A stretch of 57,264 bases of DNA from Myxococcaceae bacterium (lineage in GTDB: Bacteria; Myxococcota; Myxococcia; Myxococcales; Myxococcaceae). Below, one piece after another: positions 33,069 to 41,746 of this stretch. Every line of letters starts with the position of its first letter. Position 1 is the first letter of the stretch. A model generated the notes under the pieces. It made no database searches, was not told where the DNA came from, and saw only the letters and a program-made list of their open reading frames with translations. The stretch lies in NCBI GenBank assembly GCA_016926755.1, contig JAFGNZ010000118.1, positions 1 through 57,264 on the forward strand. The letters run 5' to 3'. Made by a program: the position numbers and the translations under genes.

Positions 33069-33310
33069 GGCTTCTCCTCTCCGAGAACCTTCGGTGGCCG
33101 CGCCCACGAACCCTGGAGACAGGTTGGCAGGGTGAGCCGGGTAGACAGTCAGAACCGTTACTTCCTGATTTGTATTTCTAGCTGGTTTTCAAAGTTAGAT
33201 CAACGGCGGCCGCCACCCACGAAGGCGCCGGAGGTGAGGTGGCTGGGGCATAATGTGCGCCCCATGTCCCTCCGCGGGTGGAGCGGCGCGGCCTGGGCGC
33301 GGAGGTGGTG

Positions 33311-34057
33311 ATGATCCTCGGAGAGGACGACACGAGGAGCGGGGCGGAGCGGCCCGAGCCACAGCGGACGGTGGAGTGCGCCGAGGCGGTGGAGTGGCTG
33401 TCGGGCCGAGCGCTCCTGGAGGGGTGCTCGGTCATCACCTCCCTGCCGGACGTGTCCGAGCTCCCCGCGCTCTCGCTGGCCGAGTGGAAGCGCTGGTTCA
33501 TCCACGCGGCGGCGCGGGTGATGGCGAAGGTGCCGGCAGAGGGCGTGGCCATCTTCTACCAGACGGACGTGAAGAAGGCCGGGGCGTGGGTGGACAAGGG
33601 CTACCTGATCAGCAGGGCCGCGGAGGAGGCCGGCTGCGAAGCGCTCTGGCACAAGGTGGTGTGCCGACGGCCTCCGGGCACGGTGACGTTCGGGCGCCCG
33701 GCGTACTCGCACCTGCTGTGCTTCTCGCGAGGCGTGCGCGTGGACCTGGGCCGGGCGACGGCGGACGTGCTGCCCGAGGCGGGCGAGGTGACGTGGACGC
33801 GCGGCATGGGCGTGCAGGCGTGCCTGGCCGCGTGCCGCTTCATCCTGGAGCACACGCCCACGCGCACGGTGGTGGATCCGTTCTGCGGCCACGGCACGGT
33901 GCTGGCGGTGGCCAACGCGCTGGGGCTGCACGCGGTGGGCGTGGAGCTCAGCCGCAAGCGCGCGAAGAAGGCGCGAGCCCTCCGCGTCACCCTGGACGCG
34001 GGCACCTTCACCCTCGCTGCCGCGCGCAATCAGCCAGGGCCCGAGGACGACTCCTGA
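33311..34057 (+). CDS. Conserved class I SAM-dependent methyltransferase, substrate unknown
   Basis: A 248-residue protein starting at an ATG with GGAGGT 5 bases upstream. The SAM-binding motif is at the C-terminal end (TVVDPFCGHGTVLAVANALG, with VGVELSRKRAKKAR), and the candidate catalytic loop comes earlier (CSVITSLPDVSELPAL). This circular order, with motif IV before motif I, is that of beta-class DNA/RNA amino-methyltransferases; TSLPD would occupy the DPPY position. Between them lie IFYQTDVKKAGAWVDKGYL and FGRPAYSHLLCFSRGVR. The family appears widely conserved in proteobacteria, from memory. An AT-rich CATAAT at 33249-33254 may be its -10 box. Confidence 0.83.
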   Translation: MILGEDDTRSGAERPEPQRTVECAEAVEWLSGRALLEGCSVITSLPDVSELPALSLAEWKRWFIHAAARVMAKVPAEGVAIFYQTDVKKAGAWVDKGYLISRAAEEAGCEALWHKVVCRRPPGTVTFGRPAYSHLLCFSRGVRVDLGRATADVLPEAGEVTWTRGMGVQACLAACRFILEHTPTRTVVDPFCGHGTVLAVANALGLHAVGVELSRKRAKKARALRVTLDAGTFTLAAARNQPGPEDDS

Positions 34058-34390
34058 CGCGAGCCGTGAGCCCAACCTCCGACTCGAGGGAGGGGCGGTG
34101 TCGACCCGGGTGCACTCGAAGGTGATGTCCTGCACCCTGGCCAACATTTGGCCTTCCCGGTGGTTTGACGTGTCTGTGGACGCCCGGTCTGATCACACGT
34201 GAGCGGAGAGAGAGCTCCTCTTCGCAGCAGCTGAGAGGGCGTGTGGTTTCGACAGCTGGACCCGGGGGGGGACCCAGCATGAAGCGTTTGGAGATCGACA
34301 TCCGTTCCTCCGCGCTCCTCGCAGGTATCGAGGTGCCCGGGCCTGGCGCCGCGCGGGGTTCCCCCCGGACTCAACACAAGGGAGCACCGC
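34058..34390 (+). promoter_or_regulatory. Long leader and candidate promoter of the isoprenoid-kinase operon
   Basis: No gene is visible in these 333 bases. A candidate promoter reads TTGACG (34165-34170), 17 bases, TCTGAT (34188-34193). Immediately overlapping its start region is the palindrome TCACACGTGA (34193-34202). The transcript would carry about 190 bases of leader, including a GCTGG...CCAGC stem (34255-34278) around a run of seven G. This arrangement looks like a regulated leader, though every element is by eye only. Confidence 0.35.
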
Positions 34391-34702
34391 ATGAGCAACC
34401 GCAGCAACAGCCAGGGCGTCGTCCACCTCCCCTTCGCCGCCGCCTTCGGAGCGTACCTCCGGCGCATCGGCGAGCTGGGGGCCGTGGAGGGGCCCAACGG
34501 CGCCGCCGAGCTCAGCCCCACGCTGCAGCCCATCGTGGCGGCGATGCACCATGTGCTCGCCGGCGGCGAGGTGCAGGTCCACATCGTGCAAAGCGGCCAG
34601 CCGGACATCTTCCAGGAGCTGCAGCAGCGCGCGGAGCAGGCCATCTCGGAGACCAACGCCCTCAACCACTCCCCGGGAACCCTGGTCGTCACCGCCGTAT
34701 GA
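34391..34702 (+). CDS. 103-residue hypothetical protein, first gene of the isoprenoid-kinase operon
   Basis: Starts at an ATG with AAGGGAG 8 bases upstream. It is a small soluble protein with no signal peptide, no cysteine and no tryptophan. The C-terminal half (VQVHIVQSGQPDIFQELQQR, then an AEQAISETNALNHSPGTLVVTA tail) looks well ordered and helical. Its stop codon overlaps the kinase start codon (ATGA), so it must be made in step with the kinase. The lack of Cys/Trp argues against it being a prenylated pheromone precursor like ComX. An accessory or adaptor role for the kinase is possible. I recognise no family. Confidence 0.72.
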   Translation: MSNRSNSQGVVHLPFAAAFGAYLRRIGELGAVEGPNGAAELSPTLQPIVAAMHHVLAGGEVQVHIVQSGQPDIFQELQQRAEQAISETNALNHSPGTLVVTAV

Positions 34703-36054
34703 GCCCGTCCTCGCGCCTCCAGGGAGTCCTCCGAGCCGCCTTCCGGCGCTGGGTCAACGCCCAGAGCGTCCAGGAGGTGCTGGCCGCCAGCAGCGTGGGC
34801 GCGTGGGTGGCGCTCGTCGCGCTGGTGCTGGTGATGCTGGCGGCCAGCCAGTGGGCGCCGGGCGCCGAGGAGTTCTTCGCCCTGCCGCTGGGCACCGCGC
34901 TGCTGTGCTTCACGCCCGCCCTGGTGGACTTCGCCTTCGCCCTGCTGCACCGCGAGCAGCAGCACATCGACTCGCGAGGGTGGCTGCTGGCGCTCATCGG
35001 CACCACGGGCCTCCAGTTCTTCGTCGCGAGCCTGATGGCGCTCTCCGCGCTGCCGGGGGCCACCGTCTTCGGCGCGCTCTTCCTGTTCACCGCCGGCTTC
35101 CACGGCCGACTCTTCCGGGTCACCCCCCGCACGCCCTTCCTCGCGCTGGGCACCGCGCTGGCGCTGGTGCTGGCGGCGGCCCTCTTCGCCCGGCGGGAGC
35201 ACGCGGCCCTCTTCGCCGTCATTGGCCCGGCGGCCCTCATGGCCGAGTTCTACCTGGGCACCTTCGCCGTCCAGCATGATCGCACCGCCGCGGAGGCGGA
35301 GCGGCTGCGCGCCGCCGTCCAGGCGCAGCTGCTGGAGCAGCAGGAGCGGGACGTGGGCCGCATGTCCCAGGCCCTCACGGAGATCATCAACCACAGCCAG
35401 GACATCCACGAGGCGCAGCTGGCGGCGGGCAGCGCCGCAGATCTGCTGGCGGGCCTGGTCGCGCGCAGCCAGGTCCTGGGCCGCGGAGAGCCGGCGAAGC
35501 TCGTCCGACAGCTCCACGAGAACCTCACCCACATCCGCGATCGCGTGATGGAGATCCACCAGAAGGGCCGCCTCCACGTCGGCAGTGATCCGGAGGCGGT
35601 GGACCTGGCACCGGTGCTGGACTCCGTGCGGCAGAGCATGGCCCTGCGCTTCCCCGAGGTGGACATCCAGGTGCAGGTGGACCGCGGCGAGCCGCTGCGC
35701 GCGTGGGTGCGAGGGGGTGTCACCACGCTGCGGCGCGTGGTGGACAACCTCGTTACCAATGCATGCGAGGGGGACGGCTTACGCGCCGCCGCGAGCGTGC
35801 GTATCTCCGCGCGCACCGAGCCCCTGAGCGGGAGGTTGGAGATGCTCATCGAGGATGATGGTCCCGGCTTTCCGCCGGAGCGGCTCGCGGTCCCCATCCA
35901 GGGGCTGTCCAGCACCAAGCCCCAGGGCACGGGGCTGGGGCTGTACACCAGCGAGTGCCTGATCCGTGCGAGCGGGGGGCTCCTGGAGCGCCAGAACGCC
36001 CAGGCGGGGGGCGCGGTGCTGCGCGTCCTGCTGCCCCGGGAGGTGCGCACATGA
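34699..36054 (+). CDS. Six-helix membrane sensor histidine kinase
   Basis: A 451-residue kinase. Six hydrophobic helices fill residues 25-190 (starting ASSVGAWVALVALVLVMLAA) with only short loops, so the sensor is the membrane domain itself, as in ComP, AgrC and CqsS. A helical linker and a phospho-acceptor region follow (QALTEIINHSQDIHEAQLAAG; His in INHSQD the likely site, although the motif is not the standard HExxxP). The ATPase is complete: N box VVDNLVTNACEGD, G1 IEDDGPGFPPERL and G2 GTGLGLYTSECLIRASGG. It starts by ATGA overlap with the 103-residue gene and ends by ATGA overlap with the isoprenoid-synthase-like gene. No response regulator is adjacent. Ligand is presumably lipophilic, possibly the product of the next two genes. 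Confidence 0.9.
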   Translation: MSPSSRLQGVLRAAFRRWVNAQSVQEVLAASSVGAWVALVALVLVMLAASQWAPGAEEFFALPLGTALLCFTPALVDFAFALLHREQQHIDSRGWLLALIGTTGLQFFVASLMALSALPGATVFGALFLFTAGFHGRLFRVTPRTPFLALGTALALVLAAALFARREHAALFAVIGPAALMAEFYLGTFAVQHDRTAAEAERLRAAVQAQLLEQQERDVGRMSQALTEIINHSQDIHEAQLAAGSAADLLAGLVARSQVLGRGEPAKLVRQLHENLTHIRDRVMEIHQKGRLHVGSDPEAVDLAPVLDSVRQSMALRFPEVDIQVQVDRGEPLRAWVRGGVTTLRRVVDNLVTNACEGDGLRAAASVRISARTEPLSGRLEMLIEDDGPGFPPERLAVPIQGLSSTKPQGTGLGLYTSECLIRASGGLLERQNAQAGGAVLRVLLPREVRT

Positions 36055-36779
36055 GCGGCGGATCCATCTACCAGGAGGCGCTGCGGGTGCTGCGGCGGCT
36101 GAACCTGCCGGAGACGGCCGAGCGGGACGTGGTGGCCGCGCTGGAGGCCGCGCAGCCGGGGCCCTTGGCGCTCCTCTACGAGGCGGGAGTGGAGGCGGGG
36201 CTGCGGCGCGAGGCGCTGCTGGCCCGAGGCGCCGGCATCTTCCTCAGCTTCGCGGCGGGCAACCTGGCCGATGACGTCAGCGACGGAGACTGCACCTACT
36301 ACGCCAGCCCCTACCGGGTGGGGCCCTATGTTCAGTTCCTCCTGCAGAACCTGGCGTGGGCCACGCTGGCGCGGGCGGAGGTGCCAGGCGAGGTGCTGGC
36401 GGAGGCGGCGGGGGCGCTGGCGAGCGCGGCGGGGCCCCAGGCGCTGGAGGTGCGGACGCAGGCGTGGACGGCGCCCATCTTCCGCCGGGTCGCCGAGGGG
36501 CTCGCGGGCCAGCAGTGGGCAGCGTACCTGCGGCTGCTGTGGACGGGGACGCCGCTGGCGGAGCGCTCGGCGGTGGGCCACGGGCTGGGCATCGCGGCCC
36601 ACGTGGCCGAGGACATCCGCTCCAAGGACCCGCGCTTCTTCAGCATGCCGGAGGCAGATCAGCGCGAGGTGGTGCGCTGGGCCCGGGCGGGGATGGAAGG
36701 CGTGCGGCGCGAAGGACTGCGGTGCCTGGACGCGGCGCTCAGGCGCATTGATCCGATTCTTCCGGAGGTGGTGCCATGA
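36051..36779 (+). CDS. Class I isoprenoid-synthase-fold protein
   Basis: A 242-residue, all-helical soluble protein, starting at an ATG preceded by GGGAGGTG. The first aspartate-rich motif is DDVSD at residues 74-78, inside FLSFAAGNLADDVSDGDCTYY. A second acidic motif is at 186-193 (AEDIRSKD), inside IAAHVAEDIRSKDPRFF. The spacing of about 110 residues is that of the two magnesium-binding motifs of trans-prenyl transferases and class I terpene synthases. The chain is shorter than polyprenyl synthases (near 300), which lose no core helix here as far as I can see. It is translationally coupled to the kinase before and the methyltransferase after. Substrate is unknown: it could elongate, cyclise or transfer a prenyl group. 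Confidence 0.78.
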   Translation: MSGGSIYQEALRVLRRLNLPETAERDVVAALEAAQPGPLALLYEAGVEAGLRREALLARGAGIFLSFAAGNLADDVSDGDCTYYASPYRVGPYVQFLLQNLAWATLARAEVPGEVLAEAAGALASAAGPQALEVRTQAWTAPIFRRVAEGLAGQQWAAYLRLLWTGTPLAERSAVGHGLGIAAHVAEDIRSKDPRFFSMPEADQREVVRWARAGMEGVRREGLRCLDAALRRIDPILPEVVP

Positions 36780-37642
36780 GGACGGAGCCAGCACAGGACG
36801 GGGCGTTCAGTGGTGAGGTGGCCGCGTACTACGACGCCAAGACGGAGGCCATCCTTCGCCGCTACGGACCCGGGCCGCGGGTGCACTACCACACGGGCGT
36901 GGTGGATGAGGCGCCACCGCCGGGACTGCCGGCCGAGGCGCTGCGGAGGCTCATCCATGAGTCGCAGGAGCTGATGCTGCGCGAGCTGTCGCTCGCGGTG
37001 GGCATCCCTCGCGGGGGCGTCGAGGTGCTGGACGTGGGCTGCGGGCTGGGAGGTGGCTCGCTGTACTGGGCGTCCCAGCACCGCGCGCGCGTCACGGCCA
37101 TCACGATCGCCCCCTCCCACGTGCCGTGGGTCAGGCACTTCGCGAACGTGGCAGGCGTGGCGGATCGGGTGACGGCCATGGTGTGCGACGCGCTGGAGGT
37201 GCCAGGCGAGGAGCGCTTCGACCTGGTGGTGGCGGTGGAGAGCTCTTGCTACCTGCCGCGGCGCGAGTGGTTCCGCGGGCTGTCCAGGCTGCTGCGACCG
37301 GGCGGCATGGTGGCCATCGCCGACTGCTTCCTCGGCCGGCAGGAGCTGGCGGCGCCGTTCGACCGGTACTGGCGCACGCACATCGGCACCGTGGAGGAGT
37401 ACTTCCGCTCGGCGAGCGCGGAGGGCCTGGAGTTGGAGCTCCACCAGGACATCTCCGGGCGGGCGGTGAACTTCTGGACGCTGACGCTCGACCTGCTCGC
37501 GCGGGAGCGCGAGGCGGCGCTGCGCGCGGGCACCCAGAGCGTGGGCCGGAGCGAGTCCCAGCGCGAGCACCTGCGGCTCCAGCAGGCGTTCCTCGACGGA
37601 GGCATCCACTACGGGATGATGGTGCTCAGGCGCCCGGACTGA
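36776..37642 (+). CDS. SAM-dependent methyltransferase, GPP C-methyltransferase-like
   Basis: A 288-residue class I methyltransferase starting at an ATG with GGAGGTG upstream. The glycine-rich SAM loop is VLDVGCGLGGGSLYWA (84-99). The layout N-terminal to it, VAAYYDAKTEAILRRYGPG, then HYHTGVVDEAPPP, resembles geranyl-diphosphate 2-C-methyltransferase and the sterol/tocopherol methyltransferases (their YYD and HHHxG patterns). The substrate-side segment VVAVESSCYLPRREWFRGLSRLLRPGG is also of that type. It is the last gene of the ATGA-linked operon, right behind a class I isoprenoid-fold protein, so methylation of a prenyl diphosphate or terpenoid product is the most economical inference. Confidence 0.85.
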   Translation: MRTEPAQDGAFSGEVAAYYDAKTEAILRRYGPGPRVHYHTGVVDEAPPPGLPAEALRRLIHESQELMLRELSLAVGIPRGGVEVLDVGCGLGGGSLYWASQHRARVTAITIAPSHVPWVRHFANVAGVADRVTAMVCDALEVPGEERFDLVVAVESSCYLPRREWFRGLSRLLRPGGMVAIADCFLGRQELAAPFDRYWRTHIGTVEEYFRSASAEGLELELHQDISGRAVNFWTLTLDLLAREREAALRAGTQSVGRSESQREHLRLQQAFLDGGIHYGMMVLRRPD

Positions 37643-37778
37643 GCGCGCGGCTGCCTCGCCTGGCCTCCCTCGGTTCGCACGGCCATCGGGAGCGCGCGCC
37701 CTCGGCTGTTCGCCTGGGACATGAGCCAGCCAGCGGCTCTGTTTCTTCGTCCGATGCCCTCCGGCCGGATCAGACCAA

Positions 37779-38214: not shown

Positions 38215-38413
38215 CCCCACCCGCTGAGCTCGACAGGCGCAGGATCCGGGTGTGAGCCGACGAGCACGCCCCGGGCCCTACGCCTGTCCTCTCTCCCGCC
38301 GGGCGCCCAGCGCGCAGCCAGGCAGCCCCGAGCCGAGGGGATGAGTGCCAGGCTCCCCTGTGCCTGCCTCACATGGCCCCGGTGGAATGTCCATCCTTGC
38401 CGGGGGTGTGAAC

Positions 38414-39520
38414 ATGCCGCGCAGCTTCGCCATCACCACGTCTGTTCCCTCGGTCCCGCTCAATGGCTCGGGCCAGGGTGAGTTCACCTTCACCGTCTCC
38501 AATGCCCTGGGCCGGCCCGTCCGCGCGCGGGCGGTGATTGAACCCGAGGGACAGCTCCAGCGCGGCTGGGTGATGATCAGCGGGGAGGCCGAGCGGGAGC
38601 TCGCCCTGGATGGCACCCAGAACTATGCGGTGAAGGTCTCCACCCCGCCCGGAGTCCCCGAGGGGACCTATTCGTTCCGCCTGGTCGTGGTGGATGTCGC
38701 AAACCCGGATGAGGAGTTCGCCATCGGACCCTCGGTGGCCTTCCAGGTCCAACGCCCCGCCGCGCCGCCTCGCAAGCGCTTCCCGATCTGGATTCCCCTC
38801 TCGGCGGTCGCGGTCCTCCTCCTGGGCATCGTCACCACGGCGCTCCTGCTGCGCGGTGATGACTCGGGCGCCGGGGGCTCGGGAGCCACGCCCACCGTAT
38901 CCCTGAGCTTCGACGGCCAGCGCTCCTATGTCGATCTGGGCCAGCCCCGTGCCCTCGACTTCACCGGCAACGTCACGATCGAGGCCTGGATCCGGCCGAG
39001 CACCACGGGCGGCTTCCACGACATCCTGGCCCATGGCTACACCCTGCAGCCCTTCGGTGAGCTCTACCTCCGCATCTTCGCCGGGACCTATCAGGTCGGC
39101 TCCTGGAATGGCGTGGACCACGGCGTGAGCGCTCGCATGCCTTCGGAGGACGCGGGGCAGTGGGTGCACCTGGCCGGCGTTTATGACGGGACGCACTGGC
39201 GCCTCTACCGCAACGGGGAGGAGGTGGCCTCCAGGCCCGACCCGGTCGGCGTCGTTTCCGTCAACGCGCCCTGGGCCATCGGCGCCCGGGGCGGTGGCAC
39301 GGAGCGCTTCTTCCACGGGGACATCGCCGAGGTGCGCCTCTGGAGCGTCGCGCGCACCCCAGCGCAGCTCCGAGAGGACATGCGCCGCGCCCCCAGGGAG
39401 GACACGGAGGGCCTCGTCGGCTCCTGGCCCTTGAGCGAGGGCCGAGGCGCCATCGCCGGGGACCGCTCCCGGAGCCAGGCGCACGGCGTCCTCCGCGGGG
39501 CGGACTGGAGCACCCCCTGA
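38414..39520 (+). CDS. Membrane protein with C-terminal LamG (concanavalin-like) domain
   Basis: About 368 residues from the ATG at 38414, with GGGGGTG upstream; an ATG at 38387 would add 9 residues. The N-terminal 110 residues are an Ig-like beta domain (SVPLNGSGQGEFTFTVSNALG, GVPEGTYSFRLVVVD). A Pro/Arg linker and one helix (IWIPLSAVAVLLLGIVTTAL) follow. The LamG domain comes last: SLSFDGQRSYVDLGQPRALDFTG, VTIEAWIRP, WVHLAGVYDGTHWRLYRNGE and FFHGDIAEVRLWSVARTPAQL. The Ig domain would be cytosolic and the LamG domain periplasmic, an unusual topology, since there is no signal peptide. LamG domains bind glycans or proteins. The stop codon lies three bases from that of the convergent subtilisin-like gene. 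Confidence 0.83.
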   Translation: MPRSFAITTSVPSVPLNGSGQGEFTFTVSNALGRPVRARAVIEPEGQLQRGWVMISGEAERELALDGTQNYAVKVSTPPGVPEGTYSFRLVVVDVANPDEEFAIGPSVAFQVQRPAAPPRKRFPIWIPLSAVAVLLLGIVTTALLLRGDDSGAGGSGATPTVSLSFDGQRSYVDLGQPRALDFTGNVTIEAWIRPSTTGGFHDILAHGYTLQPFGELYLRIFAGTYQVGSWNGVDHGVSARMPSEDAGQWVHLAGVYDGTHWRLYRNGEEVASRPDPVGVVSVNAPWAIGARGGGTERFFHGDIAEVRLWSVARTPAQLREDMRRAPREDTEGLVGSWPLSEGRGAIAGDRSRSQAHGVLRGADWSTP

Positions 39521-39523
39521 GCT

Positions 39524-41746
39524 CTACTGCAGGAGCAGCTCGCTGAAGGTGGAGTACGAGATCCCCGCCTCCTCGCCGCGCATCGTGAGGGCGGCGTTCT
39601 CGATGGGGAACCAGGCCTTGTCCAGGGGGACGTTCGTCACCCTCACCTCGTCACCCGCGGAGAGCTCGGACTGCCCCGAGAGCTCGAGCAGCTCCGAGAG
39701 GTCTACCTCATACTTGCCGTTCACCCGCAGCGTCGGATCATACAGGCTCCGCGACGAGTACTCGCTGTCGATGCTGATGTAGAGCGTCGCGGAGGGGGCC
39801 AGGCTCTCCGGGTTGTCCACCTGCATCAGGCAGAGGGTGCAGGGGTTCTTGCTCGGCTGCGGGTTCGTCCAGGGCTGGAGCGGGATGCCGTAGTACTGGC
39901 GGAGCGGACAGACGGTCTCGTCGTAGCTCCAGCTCAGGGCCCTCAGCGCCGCATGCTGACACACGGGCAGCACCGGGGGCAGGTCGACGTCGAGCAGGGA
40001 GCCGTCCACCGTCAGGGTGAGCTTCGAGTCGATCTCGGCCAGCTCGCTCGCGTCCAGCTGCGGCAGCGAGTCCGCCCGCGAGGGACAATCATCCAACAGC
40101 GTGGGGTCCGGGCAGTTTCCAGCACCTGCCTCGCAGGCCTTCATCAGGGCCTGGCAGAGCGAGACGCGATGGATGCTGCGGCGCGGGTCCGTGGCGCTCA
40201 AGGGGCAAGGGTCTCCGCCCAGGCAGAAGTCCGCGAGCTCCTCCAGGTCGACCGAGCCCTGGCGCACCAGCGCCATCACTTCGGGCCCGGACAGCTCGGG
40301 CCGGTAGCCCCAGAGGGTGGAGACAACCCCGGACACCACCGCCGCGGACACCGAGGATCCCGTGAGGATGTCCGTGGGCACGACGCCGCCATCCGCGCCG
40401 ACATCGGACGCCACCGCGTGCGCTCCGGGCGCCACCAGGCGTGGGCGCCCTCCTGGCCGGGTGCTCGCCAGTGGCCGATAGTCTCCCCGCACGCCGCCCA
40501 CCGCGAAGACCAGCGGCTGGTACACATCCAGCCCGGCGGGAGGAAAGAGGTGATACGTCACGGTCCCCGGATAGCCCGGGGCCTCCAGGGACGCACACTG
40601 CAGGGGCCCTGGCGCCGGCTTCTGCTCCCACCCCGCGGGGAACATGGGGCCCTTCACCTCATCCGGCCCGCCCGGATCATTCCCCGCCGCCGCGATGACC
40701 ACGGCCCCATGGCACACGGCATGGGTGATGGCGGCGTGGACGGCGCGCGCCGGCGCCGGCAGCTGCTCCACCTGGTCGCCCGGGTAGGGCCCGCCGTAGC
40801 GCCCGTCCCAGGCGAGGCTGAGGCTGACGACCATGCGAGGCTGCTGCGCGCCAGGCGTCTCCGGGGTGCTGCTCCCGAGGTTGTAGGAGCGCCAGTCGCT
40901 CACCGCGGAGTGGATGGCTCGCGCCAGCTGGGTCTGCTCCCCGAAGTAGCCCCCAAGCTCCGGATCCCTCCGGGTGGGCGTCACCTGCGGGAGCGCCAGG
41001 TGGTTGGCCACCTGGGAAATACAGGCCGCGCTCCCATCCGGGCAACCCAGCTCGCGGATGATGCGCCCCATCGCGTACCCGTGGCCGAGCCGATCCTCCA
41101 CCGCCTCGCCATCGCTGTAGCTCCGAGGGGAGGAGTCCACCACCGCGACGCGCACCTGCTCGGGCGGGGAGTTCGCGTCCACCGGGAGGGTCTCCAGCCG
41201 CCCCGTCTGCGCGTGGAAGTCCGTGTGCAGCGTCTGCCACGCGGCCTCGGTGGTGGCGCTCGTGCCCAGGGGCGCCACCGCGCGGCGCTCGGGATCCACC
41301 CGCTCCACCTTATGGGCGAGCGCCGTCTTCAACGTCTCCACCGCCTCCAGCGACGGGGGGGCGCTCCCCGCCGGCTCCCAGTCGTAGGCACAGAAGCGCG
41401 CGAGCCCTGGGGGAACGAGCCACTCCCCGGCGGATTCGGCGAACAGCTGCGAGCCCACCCATCGGCCCTCGTTTGCCTTCGGCCCCGGCGGGCACTCCTG
41501 GGATTCCTCCGTAAGGACCGCGATCCATCGCTCGGCCGAGTACGCCTTCGCCAACGTGCTCGCGGGAGACACGGGGACGCAGTCGCCCCCCTCCGTGGGG
41601 CACGGCGGCGCGCCCGCGTCCAAGGAGAACCCCTGCCGCGCCAGCTCCGGTCTCCCCTCCACTTCCAGGAGCGCAGAGCCGGACGGCGTACAGGCAGCGA
41701 CGATGATTGCCAGTGTGACTGTAACTAGAGGGCGTGAGGATTTCAT
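39524..41746 (-). CDS. Subtilisin-like (S8) serine peptidase lipoprotein
   Basis: A 740-residue lipoprotein with lipobox IVAAC (cysteine 19). The subtilase triad is intact: D204 in VRVAVVDSSP, H222 in RLGHGYAMG, and S465 in LTGSSVSAAVVSG, with oxyanion N356 in AAAGND. The N-terminal 190 residues are a propeptide-like region. The C-terminal 250 residues hold a cysteine-rich region (a DFCLGGDPCP motif, CQALMKACEAGAG) and a beta domain, together with a CTLCLMQVD motif. It would act at the outer face of a membrane. It follows the CHAT gene on the same strand after 25 bases, so it is probably the last gene of the sigma/anti-sigma/CHAT operon. Confidence 0.88.
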   Translation of the reverse strand: MKSSRPLVTVTLAIIVAACTPSGSALLEVEGRPELARQGFSLDAGAPPCPTEGGDCVPVSPASTLAKAYSAERWIAVLTEESQECPPGPKANEGRWVGSQLFAESAGEWLVPPGLARFCAYDWEPAGSAPPSLEAVETLKTALAHKVERVDPERRAVAPLGTSATTEAAWQTLHTDFHAQTGRLETLPVDANSPPEQVRVAVVDSSPRSYSDGEAVEDRLGHGYAMGRIIRELGCPDGSAACISQVANHLALPQVTPTRRDPELGGYFGEQTQLARAIHSAVSDWRSYNLGSSTPETPGAQQPRMVVSLSLAWDGRYGGPYPGDQVEQLPAPARAVHAAITHAVCHGAVVIAAAGNDPGGPDEVKGPMFPAGWEQKPAPGPLQCASLEAPGYPGTVTYHLFPPAGLDVYQPLVFAVGGVRGDYRPLASTRPGGRPRLVAPGAHAVASDVGADGGVVPTDILTGSSVSAAVVSGVVSTLWGYRPELSGPEVMALVRQGSVDLEELADFCLGGDPCPLSATDPRRSIHRVSLCQALMKACEAGAGNCPDPTLLDDCPSRADSLPQLDASELAEIDSKLTLTVDGSLLDVDLPPVLPVCQHAALRALSWSYDETVCPLRQYYGIPLQPWTNPQPSKNPCTLCLMQVDNPESLAPSATLYISIDSEYSSRSLYDPTLRVNGKYEVDLSELLELSGQSELSAGDEVRVTNVPLDKAWFPIENAALTMRGEEAGISYSTFSELLLQ

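Follow-up and report, generated by a model that had tools for sequence, protein, structure and literature searches.

The 57,264 nucleotides of contig JAFGNZ010000118.1 (assembly GCA_016926755.1, positions 1 to 57,264; hereafter the window) of a Myxococcaceae bacterium harbor four overlapping genes at positions 34391 to 37642, which an original prediction made from the DNA letters described as a candidate isoprenoid signalling operon. These genes raise the question of whether this bacterium makes an isoprenoid compound and senses it with the kinase encoded in the same operon. The conservation of the operon, the fold and motif state of its synthase-like protein, the subfamily of its methyltransferase, the loss of the phosphoacceptor His from its kinase and the presence of a receiver gene in divergent relatives were computed, with Hyalangium versicolor as the closest named relative of the window genome in the sample. 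We tentatively favor, at slightly less than even probability, an isoprenoid-modifying unit which in the past had a two-component system attached to it and which lost this coupling in the lineage of the window. The operon may represent a system for isoprenoid signalling in which the kinase step was lost.

Structure and conservation of the operon

All four genes are located on the forward strand. The first (34391..34702) encodes P0001, a small protein of 103 amino acids (aa) which belongs to no known family but has homologues in Myxococcota, and the second (34699..36054) encodes P0002, a histidine-kinase-like membrane protein of 451 aa recognised by its PF02518 domain (e-value: 4.3e-15), H-box alignment, phylogenetic placement and hydropathy. 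They are followed by genes for P0003 (36051..36779), a divergent trans-isoprenyl-diphosphate-synthase-fold protein of 242 aa, and P0004 (36776..37642), a C6-prenyl-diphosphate-methyltransferase-like S-adenosylmethionine (SAM) enzyme of 288 aa. The predicted ATGA overlaps between these open reading frames (ORFs) are present at 34699-34702, 36051-36054 and 36776-36779.

The same gene order, with overlaps of four bases, is found in all Hyalangium genomes examined and in almost all of the Myxococcus and Pyxidicoccus loci read, and the four genes remain together across 42-89% identity of the synthase-like protein. Overlaps at three consecutive junctions, together with this co-localization in relatives, are more than would be expected by chance, and the operon is therefore real and old. 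The overlaps further imply that the four proteins may be produced in a fixed ratio, as had been proposed.

The synthase-fold protein P0003

The translated product of the third gene shows no match above the cut-off to Pfam, NCBIfam or PDB sequences, and sequence-only searches of the PDB with a profile of the synthase family returned nothing useful. PF00348 likewise does not match P0003, and only one of twelve members of its family is reached (e-value: 0.16). An AlphaFold2 model built from 23 sequences (predicted local distance difference test, pLDDT: 94.9; predicted template modelling score, pTM: 0.92) was nevertheless matched along its whole chain by trans-isoprenyl diphosphate synthases in Foldseek (e-value: 2e-5), and among the solved matches listed the best 50 are isoprenyl-diphosphate-synthase-type proteins. 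Alignment of the model with VIA-align to 4WK5 (Z: 23.1; 2.6 A over 232 aa) and to the farnesyl diphosphate (FPP) synthase of Escherichia coli (1RQJ; Z: 22.7) spans 232-235 aa. Furthermore, profiles of the P0003 family reach genuine polyprenyl synthetases in genomes G161 (e-value: 2.5e-5) and G122 (e-value: 6e-4), each of which has a GGKR-like segment, a DDVVD motif and a second Asp motif. The modelled protein has the fold of a trans-isoprenyl diphosphate synthase, in support of the original prediction, and assignment of P0003 to a non-isoprenoid helical family is rejected on the Foldseek and VIA-align matches. Of the two outcomes named in advance as refuting the original prediction, such a family and a dispersal of the four genes in related genomes, neither was observed.

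Two Asp-rich motifs had been proposed, and the residues are found as described (D74-D75-x-x-D78 and E187-D188...D193), but only the former constitutes a full Asp motif. In a profile-profile alignment the first aspartate-rich motif (FARM) of P0003 falls on that of the synthases and its EDIRS segment falls on their second aspartate-rich motif (SARM). The FARM is a complete DDxxD (D74, D75, D78) and is lost only in Citreicoccus. The pseudo-SARM (E187 D188 I R S191) departs from DDxxD, with the second Asp alone retained, and is followed by D193 and R195. In the family alignment, sequences with as little as 18-24% identity still share D74, D75, D78, D188, D193 and R195 without exception, whereas the first pseudo-SARM residue, Glu187 in P0003, varies among relatives (Glu, Lys, Ala, Ile, Gln or Ser).

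When aligned to the synthases of their hosts, P0003 and its relatives lack the residues that bind isopentenyl diphosphate (IPP), namely GGKRxRP, the Arg after the FARM and the KT lysine. P0003 thus shares with the PF00348 family, including IspA, a common fold over the whole chain and the FARM DDxxD, but differs in the absence of a Pfam match, an intact SARM, GGKRxRP, the post-FARM arginines and the KT lysine. Since the IPP site is absent, P0003 is unlikely to be an ordinary chain-elongating prenyl synthase. It is among the most constrained parts of the operon, with a ratio of nonsynonymous to synonymous substitutions (dN/dS) of 0.13-0.17 in the subclade of the window; this and all further dN/dS values are simple NG86 estimates from pairwise comparisons that are not independent. 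The strong constraint and the invariant Asp and Arg residues argue for a catalytic role of P0003, as judged from its sequence. Two ordinary polyprenyl synthases are encoded in the window genome, so that substrate supply is not limiting.

The methyltransferase P0004

Among solved structures, P0004 (METHYLTRANSFERASE) is closest in phmmer comparisons to the C6-FPP methyltransferase 9TB4 (Bitscore: 189; e-value: 1.2e-54), followed by BezA (7FBH; Bitscore: 172; e-value: 1.5e-49), which acts on C6 of geranyl diphosphate (GPP). Matches to GPP 2-C-methyltransferases are far weaker (Bitscore: 50 or less; e-value: 3.6e-12), and this assignment was rejected. As in 9TB4 and BezA, the catalytic Glu (E155, equivalent to Glu165 of 9TB4), the F233-W234 pair and the YGPGPRVH segment are retained. 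By these sequence features P0004 belongs with the C6-prenyl-diphosphate methyltransferases, so that the earlier description of the protein as GPP-methyltransferase-like is upheld as to the isoprenoid type of the enzyme and is amended as to the subfamily. In 9TB4, which employs the catalytic Glu and the Phe-Trp pair, His194 is indispensable (PMC12929941). This residue is replaced by Cys184 in P0004 and by Val at the aligned place in BezA, which argues only against a strict C6-FPP type. Two further residues of 9TB4 are exchanged, with Trp199 in place of Y209 and Tyr38, also a Tyr in BezA, in place of F45.

In two different metagenome-assembled genomes (MAGs) the synthase and the methyltransferase are fused in a single ORF (L046:2348-3916 and L049:6001-7572), which is strong evidence that both act in one pathway. 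Published genes for C6-FPP methyltransferases adjoin a classical terpene synthase, whereas P0004 adjoins the synthase-fold protein and the kinase. A classical terpene synthase was also considered as the partner of P0004, and none was matched in the window genome (PF19086 family). Four Hyalangium genomes do have such a gene (PF19086, about 365 aa), at a distance of 6-19 kb from the operon (G001:C10:91056, G003:C3:251014, G004:C2:5973062 and G005:C1:246919).

The kinase P0002 and loss of its phosphoacceptor

Hydropathy indicates about six membrane helices within residues 23-191 of P0002, in agreement with the six that had been predicted, and the N, G1 and G2 boxes of an intact HATPase_c domain are present. 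The H-box of the window kinase reads NHSQDIHE, and the H-box alignment and tree place Gln234 (codon at 35398..35400, forward strand) in the column of the canonical phosphoacceptor His. H-boxes with a phosphoacceptor (NHD, HHD or HHE) are found in the divergent relatives, in Archangium and in most Myxococcus. Gln or Glu occupies the His column in each of the Hyalangium kinases examined, as well as in G020 of the related genus g15, and the His is also lost from Corallococcus-type genomes (genus g32), one Myxococcus clade (G130 and G141) and M. dinghuensis. Parsimony on a tree built without the H-box columns gives four changes, amounting to at least four losses across the family. No column of the dimerization and histidine phosphotransfer (DHp) region that could supply an alternative phosphoacceptor His is retained across Hyalangium, and in four Hyalangium kinases the G1/G2 boxes are altered. 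When the window is compared with its closest relatives, the DHp dN/dS is 0.55-0.60, as against 0.07-0.16 in Archangium, which indicates that this region of the window kinase is relaxed, and that of the ATPase domain in the subclade of the window is 0.15.

The small protein P0001

Strong homologues of P0001 were identified in 46 Myxococcota genomes, and G30, H53, G58, G59 and L77 are invariant across very divergent copies. As originally noted, the 103-residue protein contains neither Cys nor Trp, and neither is conserved in the family alignment. Three helices are predicted with moderate confidence (pLDDT: 73). No family or fold match was obtained for P0001, the absence of a fold match not being counted as evidence, and neither a known leader peptide, of the Nif11 type or another, nor a phosphotransfer protein was matched. 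Its LAGG segment resembles a double-glycine leader, but conservation and helical structure continue in the region downstream of it, and the neighbouring genes include no peptidase.

Counted by eye, a strong P0001 match occurs in 46 of the 50 genomes with a strong synthase match, the coordinates listed for the two being no more than about 3 kb apart, and all strong P0001 matches fall in synthase-bearing genomes. The four exceptions comprise two Citreicoccus-type genomes in which the synthase FARM is lost, one truncated contig and G141, where an in-frame deletion (L137, around 2510-2680) removes the conserved His/Gly-Gly core of P0001 and the synthase and methyltransferase appear intact. In L044, P0001, the synthase and the methyltransferase are encoded with no kinase gene adjacent. 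This co-occurrence, its exceptions and L044 suggest that P0001 tracks the intact synthase more closely than it does the kinase.

Receiver genes, DyP-type peroxidases and history of the locus

The absence of an adjacent response regulator, as originally noted, holds for the window, in which none was found beside the operon, but not for the family, as several relatives have an adjacent receiver. The two most divergent loci, in G164 and G161, encode a receiver, the small protein, the kinase and the synthase side by side, with the phosphoacceptor His and Asp intact and with neither methyltransferase nor DyP-type peroxidase, and L048, a MAG, carries the receiver, small protein, kinase, synthase and methyltransferase, with kinase and receiver intact. 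Throughout these relatives the receiver is a single domain without an output domain. In Archangium, a DyP-type peroxidase and a receiver precede the small protein, kinase and synthase genes; the Archangium receiver (L024:4225-4590) has Ala at the usual place of the phosphorylated Asp, though the kinase keeps its His. A search of seven Hyalangium genomes for the receiver of the relatives returned no close homologue, a result which does not extend to receivers of other types. Given that Gln234 replaces the His and a receiver gene is missing, a working product-sensing phosphorelay appears unlikely in the window bacterium.

Because the divergent genomes lack the methyltransferase, signalling and synthase genes form the older core of the locus, to which the methyltransferase was added later. 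The proposed coupling of a synthase to a kinase is supported, since the most divergent loci keep the coupled set with its phosphorylation residues intact, but not for the window genome, where the kinase lacks the phosphoacceptor His.

A DyP-type peroxidase (PF20628) heads the locus in Archangium and others (L024:3350-4225, L038, L041, L042, L046 and L047), and a short N-terminal fragment of it (MRPQERLLHP...) is located upstream of the small gene in Pyxidicoccus L036. In the window, a short reading frame (MKRLEIDI...; 34280..34390, forward strand) begins with an ATG after a poly-G tract, in a poly-G...CAGCATG context which matches the one at the start of the DyP genes of Archangium and Citreicoccus. 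Judged by this context, the ATG is likely what remains of the start of a DyP-type peroxidase gene that was deleted. As the fragment and the start context remain, the ancestors of the Pyxidicoccus and window lineages probably lost the peroxidase and receiver genes by deletion. The Corallococcus-type copies L081 and L082 (genus g32) encode a kinase without phosphoacceptor and a methyltransferase whose SAM motif is damaged, and lack the synthase and the small protein, indicative of a decaying locus, and in Citreicoccus the motifs of synthase, methyltransferase and peroxidase are all damaged. Such joint decay supports the notion of one functional unit.

Proposed function and alternative explanations

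In the reading that we favor, P0004 would first C-methylate a prenyl diphosphate, probably near C6. P0003 would bind an allylic prenyl diphosphate via Mg2+ coordinated by the intact FARM, ionise this substrate and, without an IPP site, pass the prenyl group to a non-IPP target, whether an acceptor, water or an internal cyclisation, in a chemistry less like that of FPP synthase than like that of ComQ or of a terpene synthase. P0001 would be the partner or acceptor of the synthase, and together they may make a lipophilic product or transfer a prenyl group. The membrane domain of P0002 may once have detected this lipophilic product, with a separate receiver as the target of its signalling, an ancestral tuning that is plausible, and in the window lineage, with His and receiver gone, P0002 would serve at most as an ATP-binding membrane receptor or scaffold.

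Several observations weigh against this proposal. No methyltransferase close to P0004 was found in Archangium, where the synthase is present, and L044 keeps its other three genes with no adjacent kinase. The deletion in G141 suggests that the conserved core of P0001 is not always needed. By its Cys184 and Trp199 the predicted pocket of P0004 is unlike those of both known enzymes, such that no substrate is assignable. The second motif of P0003 is degenerate, and the protein could be a non-catalytic binder of prenyl diphosphates. If so, P0003 would be a synthase-fold sensor which controls the kinase or the methyltransferase, as its lack of an IPP site, GGKR and KT lysine and its tight tie to the kinase and P0001 would allow; the invariance of the FARM, D188, D193 and R195 and the activity of ComQ, a transferase with the same motif pattern (PMC5331326), render this improbable.

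The system originally envisaged, with an isoprenoid signal that is produced by synthase and methyltransferase, detected by the kinase and passed on through phosphotransfer, would account for the conserved gene set and its coupling, and for the intact kinase and receiver beside the synthase in divergent relatives and, with the methyltransferase, in the MAG L048. As a system working in the window genome it is very improbable, given Gln234 and no neighbouring His column kept across Hyalangium, the relaxed DHp region and the lack of a close receiver homologue, receivers of other types aside. The operon might, alternatively, be dedicated to terpenoid biosynthesis, with two-component genes that only ever regulated its expression, for instance under membrane stress, and a kinase that never sensed the product and is vestigial in Hyalangium. 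The biosynthetic genes mostly persist through at least four losses of the His, and the fusions of synthase and methyltransferase, the locus without adjacent kinase and the DyP-type peroxidase that accompanies the set in Archangium and elsewhere also speak for such an operon. However, the kinase, receiver, small protein and synthase of the two most divergent loci make the tie between kinase and synthase the oldest, and the ATPase domain is still constrained in the subclade of the window; we regard this explanation as rather unlikely, yet deserving serious consideration.

Comparison with known systems

In CqsA/CqsS and LqsA/LqsS, as here, a signal-making gene is located beside that of a membrane kinase; CqsA is an acyl-transferring enzyme dependent on pyridoxal phosphate, and its chemistry is unrelated to that of the operon. 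The layout of the operon also resembles that of ComQXPA of Bacillus, which consists of the isoprenyl transferase ComQ, the peptide ComX, the kinase ComP and the regulator ComA. In a published census, ComQXPA was recorded in Firmicutes only (PMC4008528). ComQ has an intact FARM and a pseudo-SARM with the second Asp alone, both required for activity, and demands Asn or Gly as the first pseudo-SARM residue (PMC5331326). P0003 likewise has an intact FARM and a SARM reduced to the second Asp, and a small protein and a multi-helix kinase are encoded in one operon, with a receiver beside them in divergent relatives. In contrast, P0001 is larger than ComX and has no Trp near its C-terminus nor any Cys, the pseudo-SARM of P0003 starts with Glu, no DNA-binding regulator is encoded, the relatives' receiver standing alone and the window having none, and the kinase has no phosphoacceptor. 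Since the ComX Trp, the first pseudo-SARM residue, the DNA-binding regulator and the phosphoacceptor all differ, the operon resembles ComQXPA in layout and in the active-site state of the synthase but is not a member of this system. It is doubtful, although conceivable, that it constitutes a Gram-negative counterpart, in which a ComQ-like synthase prenylates a P0001-like partner or a small molecule, the prenyl group being methylated in most lineages, the six-helix protein reads the product and kinase-dead signalling replaces the phosphorelay in several lineages. No description of this gene set was found in the literature searched, which covered few subscription journals.

Flanking features

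A TTTGAC element (34164..34169, forward strand), recognised by eye, is conserved upstream of the first gene of the locus in relatives, which is the DyP-type peroxidase gene in Archangium and Citreicoccus and the small gene in Hyalangium and Myxococcus. It is a possible -35 box by inference only, as no full sigma-70 site was found in a consensus scan. A terminator-like stem-loop (37723..37739, forward strand) is present 3′ of the operon (one found versus 0.1 expected). The upstream gene (33278-34057) is conserved near the operon in most Myxococcaceae, and its product shows a weak N6_N4 DNA methylase match in the C-terminal part only. Further downstream, a Subtilase-type protease (PF00082) is encoded on the minus strand (39524-41746), near a LamG-domain protein (38345-39520). 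In addition, L031 (BNCN01000009.1), named Comamonas sp. KCTC 72670, harbors a typical Myxococcus locus, and its name is probably wrong.

Significance

The synthase-fold family described here lies below Pfam detection, and the operon to which it belongs would be a probable source of methylated prenyl compounds. The Myxococcus genomes in the sample generally carry the operon, so that a tractable species, M. xanthus (L037), is available. The lineages in which the sensor kinase loses its phosphoacceptor and the operon stays intact would provide natural replicates of this event, and with this operon the combination of isoprenoid enzyme and sensor kinase would be extended to Gram-negative bacteria.

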